Assembly: GCA_001803565.1 (NCBI GenBank)
Contig: MHDQ01000167.1
Coordinates: 1-5,463, forward strand
DNA: 5,463 bases
Source: Nitrospinae bacterium RIFCSPLOWO2_12_FULL_45_22
GTDB taxonomy: Bacteria; 2-12-FULL-45-22
Reading direction: 5' to 3'
Shown here: positions 3,749 to 5,463 of the stretch, in pieces
How positions within the stretch are numbered: position 1 is the stretch's first letter
How the letters are laid out: each line of letters starts with the position of its first letter
Notes under the pieces: generated by a model
What the model was told of the DNA's origin: nothing
The model's input: the letters and a program-made list of their open reading frames with translations, nothing else
The model's database searches: none
Position numbers and translations under genes: made by a program

Positions 3749-4195
3749 CTACAGGTCAAAAATTATGCGGGCTTGCCAGCCCTTTTCTCCTTCCGCCACT
3801 TTCATCTGGTGATAAGTAGCGGCTTTTATGATGGTATTAATAATGTGCCTCTCCTGGTCAAATGGCTCACCATGGCCCAGGGCCTTTAATCCATTATTAC
3901 TTAACTCAAGCATCCTCAGCTCATGAAACAACAAACCCCTGGTATCAAAGAGATAAAGGAGTTCTCCTAGCCAATTAACCATCAACTGCTCTAAGTCCTG
4001 GCCTTCTACCAGGATCTCTTTTTCCTCCCGGGTTTGTACCCGCGATAGGTCAGTGATTATATCAAAAAAGGCCAGGCCCGCATGACAGAAGAGCTGCGCC
4101 AGATCATTACCCCAGACAATAATCCCTAAATCACCAGTATGATCCACCAGTTGATAATAATCTTTTATATTGACAACCAAAGGCATCCGCTCCAT
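3749..4195 (-). CDS. Archease, RtcB-activating protein
   Basis: Archease is the cofactor protein that speeds RtcB guanylylation, allows multiple turnovers and broadens its nucleotide use. The 148-residue protein carries the family pattern: YYQLVDHTGDLGIIVWG near the start (D18, H19, D22), the middle helix region VNWLGELLYLFDTRGLLF, then GHGEPFDQERH (about 107-117), IKAATYH (123-129) and the terminal ARIIFDL with D147. The conserved aspartates of the N-terminal DHTxD and the C-terminal FD are those known to bind metal in the family. The N-terminus is about ten residues longer than typical; Met4 is an alternative start, but its upstream GGAG is only 3 bases away. ATG 4195 has only a weak TGGAA 7 bases upstream. 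Its leader is almost wholly the inverted repeat at 4208-4234. It is in the same frame as the GxxExxY gene, separated by that gene's stop and 14 open codons. The adjacent rtcB confirms the assignment. Confidence 0.96.
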   Translation of the reverse strand: MERMPLVVNIKDYYQLVDHTGDLGIIVWGNDLAQLFCHAGLAFFDIITDLSRVQTREEKEILVEGQDLEQLMVNWLGELLYLFDTRGLLFHELRMLELSNNGLKALGHGEPFDQERHIINTIIKAATYHQMKVAEGEKGWQARIIFDL

Positions 4196-4207: not shown

Positions 4208-4234
4208 AACAGGGATATACAGGATGAACAGGAT
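4208..4234 (+). repeat. Inverted repeat arm, archease side
   Basis: On the plus strand this 27-mer begins AACAGGGATA and continues with two CAGGAT units. It matches the reverse complement of 4613-4639 at 23 of 27 positions. The AGGAT cores recur at about 9-base spacing. It ends 12 bases before the archease start codon and begins three bases beyond the GxxExxY stop. Confidence 0.85.
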
Positions 4235-4237
4235 TTT

Positions 4238-4600
4238 TTATCCATGTAGTCTCCTATATTCAAGCTTAGGATTCCCAAAGTTGATCAACAAACCGACTTC
4301 TAATCCTGTAGCCTTGAGATAATTGATCAGTTGAGCCTTGTACTCCGGAGCAAGCTTTGTTACCGCTTTAAGCTCCAATATGACAATATCTTCCACCAAT
4401 ATATCGGCAGAAAACTCTCCCACCGGTATCCCTCGAAACTTTACGGTTAGAGGAACCTGGGATTGTGCCTTCAAACCTTTGTCTCTCAAAGCAATAAGCA
4501 GGGCCTTTTCATACACAGATTCCAGAAAACCAGCCCCCAGTTCATTGCTGACCTCAAAGCAGGCTTCCAGAACCTTTGCAGTTAATGCTTCATGCAACAT
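4238..4600 (-). CDS. GxxExxY family protein (PD-(D/E)XK nuclease-like), 120 aa
   Basis: The family is named for its motif, seen here as GFLESVY (G24, E27, Y30) after MLHEALTAKVLEACFEVSNELGA. It is related to the PD-(D/E)XK nuclease superfamily. D66 (in SADILVED), E76 and K78 (in ILELKAV) and Q90 with YL (in QLINYLK) sit where that fold keeps its catalytic residues, so the nuclease core looks complete. No activity or biological role is established for the family as far as I know. The frame stays open upstream to an ATG at 4696 inside the radical SAM gene, but those 32 residues include a repeat-encoded RDKQDRQDRDR stretch and do not belong to the family; MLHE at 4600 is the normal start and has AGGGA 7 bases upstream. 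The protein ends in the usual EYRRL. It interrupts an operon with which it has no evident biochemical link. Confidence 0.9.
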   Translation of the reverse strand: MLHEALTAKVLEACFEVSNELGAGFLESVYEKALLIALRDKGLKAQSQVPLTVKFRGIPVGEFSADILVEDIVILELKAVTKLAPEYKAQLINYLKATGLEVGLLINFGNPKLEYRRLHG

Positions 4601-4607
4601 CGCTCTG

Positions 4608-4612
4608 TCCCT
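4608..4612 (-). promoter_or_regulatory. Repeat-adjacent ribosome-binding site of the GxxExxY gene
   Basis: The minus strand reads AGGGA seven bases before the ATG at 4598-4600. It is the last, diverged unit of the GGAT-type repeat array, so the repeat appears to supply the translation signal for the ORF it brackets. It supports the 120-residue start over the longer frame. Confidence 0.5.
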
Positions 4613-4639
4613 ATCCTGTCTATCCTGCTTATCCCTGTT
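4613..4639 (-). repeat. Inverted repeat arm, radical SAM side
   Basis: On the minus strand this 27-mer begins AACAGGGATA and continues with two CAGGAT units, matching the plus-strand arm at 4208-4234 with four mismatches (two at each spacer between units). Unit spacing is about 9 bases, a multiple of three, so the gene frame stays open through it. It starts 11 bases after the radical SAM stop and directly precedes the ribosome-binding site of the GxxExxY gene. Confidence 0.85.
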
Positions 4640-4650
4640 GATAGACTTCC

Positions 4651-5463
4651 CTATAGCGACCATAGGCCGGGGATAGCAGTATGGCAGGAGGGGCATTTAC
4701 CCTCCTGCATAACATTTTCCTGGACCTGGAATCCCCAGCGGTCTATTAACTTTTTATGGCAATTATAGCAGTAAGTATCTTCGTTTTCATCCCCCGGTAT
4801 ATTACCACTGTATACGTACCTTAGTCCTATCCTGCGCCCTATCTCGCCAGCCCGATGGATACTTTCGACTGAAGTCCGAGGACGATCGGTCATCTTATAG
4901 GTCGGATAAAAAGCGCTTATATGCCAGGGTATATCAGGAGATACGCTCAGGATAAAACGGGCTAGCTCTTCTAACTCGCTCTCAGAATCGTTATGGCCCG
5001 GAATTAATAGCGTCGTGACCTCCACCCATATGCCCAGTTCGTGCATCAGCCGGATAGTATCCAGCACAGGCTGGAGTCGGGCACCGCATACCTGGCGATA
5101 TCTTTGGTCATCAAACCCCTTAAGGTCTACATTAGCCGCATCCAGATAAGGATTAATCAGTTGTAATGCCTCCGCAGTCATGTAGCCATTAGTGACAAAG
5201 TTGTTTCTCAGGCCTTTGCTATGGGCCAGCCTGGCGGTATCCAGGGCCAGTTCAAAAAAGATAGTCGGTTCAGTATAGGTATAAGATATATTGGTACAAC
5301 GATACCGGGTGGCCGTATTAACGATCTCATCCGGGGAAAGTTTCTGGCCATTGATACGGCCCTGCTCATCCCCCGGCATCTGTGAGATCTGATAATTCTG
5401 GCAGTTCCGGCAGCGGAAGTTACAACCCACAGTAGCGATAGATAAAGATAAGGTGCCGGGTAG
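4651..5463 (-). CDS. amrS: AmmeMemoRadiSam system radical SAM enzyme, N-terminus off the window
   Basis: The frame is open to the right window edge; the visible 270 residues begin LPGTLSLSIATVGCNFRCRNCQN. The GTG at 5428-5430 is the valine just before the cluster motif and cannot be the true start; by family length (about 330-340 residues) some 60-70 N-terminal residues are missing. CNFRCRNC (CxxxCxxC) binds the 4Fe-4S cluster that cleaves S-adenosylmethionine. Next come YTEPTIFFE, NFVTNGYM, DAANVDLKGF, TLLIPGHNDS and WHISAFYPTYKMTD, all usual in this pyruvate-formate-lyase-activase-like group. The C-terminus has a paired-cysteine module, CYNCHKKL and CPSCHTAIPG, probably a metal-binding ribbon. 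The family is defined by co-occurrence with AMMECR1 and Memo proteins; its substrate is unknown to me. Its end is intact, so the neighbouring cassette did not truncate it. AMMECR1/Memo genes, if present, lie outside the window. It was probably the upstream neighbour of archease in the original operon. Confidence 0.92.
   Translation of the reverse strand, partial: LPGTLSLSIATVGCNFRCRNCQNYQISQMPGDEQGRINGQKLSPDEIVNTATRYRCTNISYTYTEPTIFFELALDTARLAHSKGLRNNFVTNGYMTAEALQLINPYLDAANVDLKGFDDQRYRQVCGARLQPVLDTIRLMHELGIWVEVTTLLIPGHNDSESELEELARFILSVSPDIPWHISAFYPTYKMTDRPRTSVESIHRAGEIGRRIGLRYVYSGNIPGDENEDTYCYNCHKKLIDRWGFQVQENVMQEGKCPSCHTAIPGLWSL

Follow-up and report, generated by a model that had tools for sequence, protein, structure and literature searches.

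The window analyzed here is the whole stretch of 5,463 nucleotides at positions 1 to 5,463 of contig MHDQ01000167.1 from Nitrospinae bacterium RIFCSPLOWO2_12_FULL_45_22. On its minus strand an AmrS-type radical SAM gene is followed by a short element with inverted ends and then by genes for archease, RtcB, an isoaspartate methyltransferase-like protein and an RtcA-like protein (Table 1). The last two are what we take these genes to be, as they were named from their sequence without a Pfam run. The element leaves just 11-12 bp to the neighboring gene on each side (radical SAM stop at 4651, archease ATG at 4195). Near the start of the window a 79-aa ORF on the plus strand (53-292) had no Pfam match.

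Table 1. Positions of the GxxExxY element, its parts and the flanking host genes in the window.
Feature	Position	Strand	Description
Whole GxxExxY cassette	4208..4639	minus	432 bp; inverted arms and a single ORF; homologous cassettes elsewhere with differing immediate flanks
Terminal arm 3' of gene	4208..4234	plus	AACAGGGAT-AT-ACAGGAT-GA-ACAGGAT, unit spacing ~9 bp
Terminal arm 5' of gene, inverted copy	4613..4639	minus	ATCCTGT-CT-ATCCTGC-TT-ATCCCTGTT
GxxExxY gene	4238..4597	minus	119 aa, PF13366/TIGR04256, predicted PD-(D/E)XK nuclease
Host flank, AmrS-type radical SAM gene	4651..5463	minus	runs past the window end
Host flank, archease gene	3749..4195	minus	next in the same operon

The two arms, AACAGGGATATACAGGATGAACAGGAT on the side 3' of the gene and ATCCTGTCTATCCTGCTTATCCCTGTT on the side 5' of it, are complementary at 23 of 27 positions and form both the longest and the best inverted repeat of the window. 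They scored 34, whereas the best of 60 dinucleotide shuffles of the window scored 30, so the probability that chance alone produced the repeat is less than ~2% at the window level, and the comparative data below remove the doubt. Each arm contains three units ~9 bp apart, starting at 4208, 4219 and 4228 and at 4613, 4622 and 4631. The GxxExxY gene starts with the ATG at 4597 (minus strand) and its stop codon is 3 bp to the inside of one arm.

An earlier note on this DNA, made from the sequence alone, had described a 27-bp inverted repeat with 23 matching positions around one GxxExxY ORF, and this held. Its reading of terminal inverted repeats without a transposase also held, the sole ORF of note being the PF13366 gene. 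The stated ORF length of 120 residues held only in part, with 119 aa counted from the ATG, and for the claimed ribosome-binding site there is only a weak, putative candidate (GGGA, ~11 nt upstream). The note had taken the arms for plain repeats and had not recorded that they are arrays of iterated units.

The GxxExxY protein has a predicted nuclease fold

The window protein matched PF13366 (E 1.1e-40, 139.1 bits, cut-off 22) and TIGR04256 (E 1.3e-41, 141.6 bits, cut-off 35) over the full domain and above the curated cut-offs, which places it in the GxxExxY family. An AF2 model built from 57 sequences had a pLDDT of 94.6. The top structural match of this model was Cas4 SSO0001 (Z 10.2), followed by further PD-(D/E)XK proteins with Z of 8 or lower; lambda exonuclease and Hjc were also matched. 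The model thus predicts a restriction-endonuclease-like core, that is a PD-(D/E)XK fold similar to Cas4 and lambda exonuclease, from which nuclease activity is inferred. Within the 57 sequences E26, D65, K77, Q89 and Y93 were invariant and E75 was conserved in at least 90%. The putative active site comprises E26, D65, E75 and K77 together with Q89xxxY93, and catalysis by these residues is likewise inferred. The ketol-acid reductoisomerase hit from phmmer (5e4r, E 5.6e-5) was rejected, as it covers residues 16-78 only and conflicts with the fold result.

At an orthologous site in Luteimonas (see below) dN/dS values were 0.03-0.29; these are approximate, as dS often exceeded 1. This comparison shows purifying selection on GxxExxY, so the gene has been kept functional. 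As PADLOC and PHROG gave no match for the GxxExxY protein and the phage search no hit, a role in defence or in phages is unsupported here. Plasmid matches were few (8 records). For VIA-align, absence from its family list does not exclude a family.

Copies and derivatives within the genome

PF13366 matched 12 places in the genome of origin, 5 of them long or full-length copies and 7 C-terminal pieces. When the flanks were read, nearly all 12 copies were bracketed by inverted arrays of units, and the phrase of the unit differed between copies. The window copy carries the ACAGGAT phrase, while CACAAGAT was found at C96, C64, C67 and C66 (and at C297, where one side is visible), CACAGAG at C232, CACAAAG at C84, C320 and C229, and CGCAGAT at C219; C8 gave no clear phrase. 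The C-terminal pieces derive from internal deletion and retain both ends, as is likewise the case in MITEs; C297 shows the 3' side only.

The ends of the window element also occur without the gene. Palindromes bearing them were found at C136 and C280, and the former matches the window arm over 28 bp at 96%. Further ACAGGAT palindromes lie elsewhere in this genome: a 17-mer search allowing up to 3 mismatches gave 46 hits, against 7 for the reversed control.

The cassette architecture recurs across phyla

A scan of contigs, seeded with one conserved stretch and therefore favoring one subtype, recovered 80 loci from many phyla. The genomes were sampled at one per species and many are MAGs, so that recent insertions are not visible. 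Inverted repeats were sought between the 150-bp flanks of 77 loci, with significance judged against shuffles. A significant inverted repeat spanned the gene at 62 of these GxxExxY loci and was absent at the other 15. Scores of at least 30 were reached at 54/77 loci, compared with 2/361 shifted controls in the same loci. The arms were again tandem units with a period of usually 9-10 bp, built on ACAGGAT in the window and on ACRCRGAT elsewhere.

Two loci from different genomes (L163 and L178) have elements that are 85% identical (1471-1898), and the sequence immediately outside differs. A caveat is a second matching stretch elsewhere in these contigs (447 bp, 70%). About 90% of the cassettes are co-oriented with both neighboring genes (36:4 and 36:3; L118-L197), which possibly reflects read-through expression, or insertion linked to RNA or transcription. 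No target-site duplication was detected at 55 loci (mean edge repeat 1.13 vs 1.04 ± 0.18 when permuted).

At four loci (L131, L141, L145 and L170) extra arms of opposite orientation lie beside the cassette, as would result if palindromes without a gene had inserted next to it. Separately, ~10 GxxExxY genes or pieces occur within roughly 42 kb of one chromosome (G207:C1:786477-828000).

The same site differs between related species

Three host gene junctions were compared, whose names (sufE-sufT, leuC-leuD and liuC-liuD) are what we take the genes to be from reading their sequence. Between sufE and sufT in Flavobacterium, four of the species that were read have no insert (L257, L266, L267 and L277; genes ~4 nt apart), ~10 species carry an insert of 580-710 bp that matches the GxxExxY element, and others have gene-less palindromes with three different phrases. 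The leuC-leuD junction of the Flavobacterium comparison holds GxxExxY elements in two species and gene-less palindromes in most; three longer inserts start like IVP genes, as judged from the ORF start only. Between liuC and liuD in Luteimonas, 7/30 species carry a GxxExxY element and six are essentially empty (12-37 bp). Three others (L312, L313 and L318) have an ORF that by eye is DUF559-like, between inverted arms of CCCTCCCCTTCAAGGGGAGGG. Some sites are stably shared across species (L129/L130/L167/L148, and four sites in Flavobacterium).

At one orthologous site (L305-L311 and L324) the two arms of a locus match each other at 0.89-0.98, compared with a match of down to 0.69 for the same arm across diverged species; the two arms thus change in concert. 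At L305 the inverted repeat extends over a reverse copy, in the left flank, of the liuD start region (GAGCATTTTTT). For the window locus, G001 was considered as an empty site and rejected, since the neighboring genes differ and archease and RtcB are missing there.

Arm sequence follows protein subtype and the presence of the gene

Arms made of C(A/G)CNRAG units accompanied all 23 classifiable proteins ending in GI(R/K)R, whereas 59/60 proteins of the NYLKAT type had GAT/GAC/GAA-type units (23/23 vs 1/60, Fisher 1.3e-19). The two subtype sets came from separate searches, and the arms had been inspected before the unit classes were drawn up. The closest protein found, at 69% identity in an acidobacterial MAG, has arms with the rare ACAGGAT phrase of the window. 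No finer relation between arm and protein similarity was detected within the NYLKAT subtype (Mantel rho 0.05, p 0.26; arms not orientation-normalized).

The ACRCRGATNAACRCRGAT pattern occurred in 24/290 genomes, 23 of which encode GxxExxY (Fisher 1.6e-15). The single genome without the gene had one hit only, and the reversed control pattern gave 0 hits across the 290 genomes.

The earlier note had suggested that the segment is mobile. By comparison this is supported and extends to other phyla, with no movement directly observed. It had proposed to look for copies with matching ends, which were found in the genome of origin, including the gene-less palindromes, and for empty sites, which were found in Flavobacterium and Luteimonas. 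Presence and absence at one site are thereby established for relatives of the element and not for the window locus, which has no close relative to compare. The suggested refutation, that such repeats are common without GxxExxY, failed at the genome level (the gene is present in 23 of the 24 genomes that show the arm pattern). The choice that the note had left between a mobilizing nuclease and cargo is settled by no experiment; the coupling of arms and protein favors the former. As refinements, the arms vary among copies and track protein subtype, and two further small-gene families share the layout.

Discussion

Comparison with known systems

REPINs are short inverted repeats that are scattered through intergenic regions, have multiplied within a genome and are tied to one protein family, the RAYTs; repeats and protein are thought to co-evolve and gene-less doublets to be mobile in trans (PMC3116915). 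RAYTs, which belong to the IS200-like Y1 tyrosine transposases and are associated with REP palindromes, have been described as present in a single copy and unable to move themselves (PMC3116915). The GxxExxY element is similar in its gene-tied intergenic inverted repeats, their amplification and the gene-less copies. It differs in that a PD-(D/E)XK nuclease lies inside the unit, that it is multi-copy and that its arms are arrays of 7-10-bp units. Its protein matched PF13366 only, so no IS200-like Y1 transposase is encoded in the element, and the GTAG/CGTC of REP palindromes (PMC3733652) is in neither arm of the window element, which are ACAGGAT arrays.

Like insertion sequences and MITEs, the element has a single gene enclosed by terminal inverted repeats, and it likewise occurs in internally deleted forms and with empty sites. 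In contrast to these, it has no DDE, Y1, serine or tyrosine recombinase, its arms are iterated units and no target duplication is detectable; some IS families also produce no target-site duplication. In its working the element thus resembles REPIN-RAYT systems or IS/MITEs, yet its enzyme excludes it from both.

Intervening sequences of 23S rRNA with IVP genes (PF05635) similarly have a small gene between inverted ends, but the IVP fold is unlike that of GxxExxY. Classical intervening sequences reside inside 23S rRNA. In the genome of origin, 9/9 IVP genes (G000 L067-L075) lay between inverted repeats, most of which are arrays of ~7-bp units (TTCTAGG, ATAGCTG, TCAACGT, GGTTATT and others), and the layout is therefore broader than one family. 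Cas4, lambda exonuclease and Hjc share the predicted fold and the E-D-ExK-QxxxY residues. These enzymes act in CRISPR adaptation, recombination or junction resolution, and none of them is known to us to lie between its own terminal repeats. In Beggiatoaceae, intergenic heptanucleotide direct repeats such as TAACTGA are suspected to be mobile, with the repeat-binding protein unidentified (PMC4679880). They resemble the GxxExxY arms as suspected mobile arrays of short intergenic units, but are direct repeats, and the relevant sections of PMC4679880 describe no inverted pairing around an ORF. The open-licence PMC literature that was searched contained no description of such GxxExxY/repeat elements.

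Alternative explanations

The most serious alternative, which remains possible, is that a different recombinase, or host repair, acts in trans to move the arms, with GxxExxY, IVP and DUF559 as interchangeable cargo. In its favor, the same layout surrounds three unrelated small genes and gene-less palindromes are common. Against it, each gene family, and within GxxExxY even each subtype, has arms of its own, and genomes without the gene almost never contain such arms. This specificity and dependence are unlike what a shared mover would predict, although a common transposase in the carriers is not excluded.

A less likely explanation is an RNA stem, in which paired arms in operon transcripts act as an mRNA-processing hairpin or as an intervening sequence comparable to those of 23S rRNA, with RNA-linked spread. 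This would fit the predominant co-orientation with both neighbors, the same layout of IVP genes and, at one site, the closer match of arms within a locus than between species. However, mismatches between the arms on the sense strand showed no excess of G-U-compatible pairs (91 vs 83, p 0.60), and this absence of a wobble bias speaks for recognition of DNA over RNA. Co-orientation is equally expected from a need for read-through or from selection.

It is very unlikely that the segment is an immobile operon element, i.e., a regulatory palindrome passed on by vertical descent that some species have lost. Many congeners are occupied at the same junction, as this reading expects, but one junction holds different element families and arm phrases, homology is confined to the element between differing contexts, and copies are dispersed in one genome. 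A meaningless chance repeat is all but excluded: in 5.4 kb a pair of 27-bp arms that differ at 4 positions is unremarkable by itself, but the score was unreached in the shuffles and the architecture recurs across phyla.

A proposed minimal mobile element

Comparison has shown that the architecture recurs, that shared sites can be occupied or empty, that homology between elements ends at the arms, that the arms depend on the gene across genomes and are coupled to the protein, and that the gene is under purifying selection. Comparison thereby gives good support for mobility of arms and gene as a unit, with no movement directly observed. The explanation that we prefer, by a modest margin, is that the 432-bp segment is a minimal mobile element whose GxxExxY protein recognizes its own arrays and mobilizes derivatives in trans; binding and catalysis are both inferred. 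The nuclease would bind the units of its own arms and cut DNA at the element ends. The element would then insert at new intergenic sites, mostly internal to operons, with an inferred joining step that may use host enzymes, and would be expressed through read-through of the host operon. Internally deleted or gene-less derivatives with the same arms may be served in trans. Several points count against this explanation: target-site duplications were lacking, 15 of the 77 loci have no significant repeat, arm and protein similarity were unrelated within the NYLKAT subtype, some sites are stably inherited between species, the window locus offers no empty site for comparison and, to our knowledge, no PD-(D/E)XK protein performs transposition alone.

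In a bolder reading, these elements would form a new, autonomous class of mobile DNA across much of the bacterial domain, which would rely on a Cas4-like nuclease alone and no classical transposase, with convergent versions based on IVP four-helix and DUF559 proteins; jointly they would explain many intergenic short-unit repeats. We lean slightly against this wider claim on the present evidence.

The GxxExxY family is annotated yet unexplained, and genomes often hold several copies. The literature searched offers no explanation for short-unit repeats such as ACGCAGATGAACGCAGAT, which recur between bacterial genes. The link between the two gives both a directly testable function. If the nuclease alone suffices, this would be a route of transposition without a known transposase class, in a package of ~430 bp.
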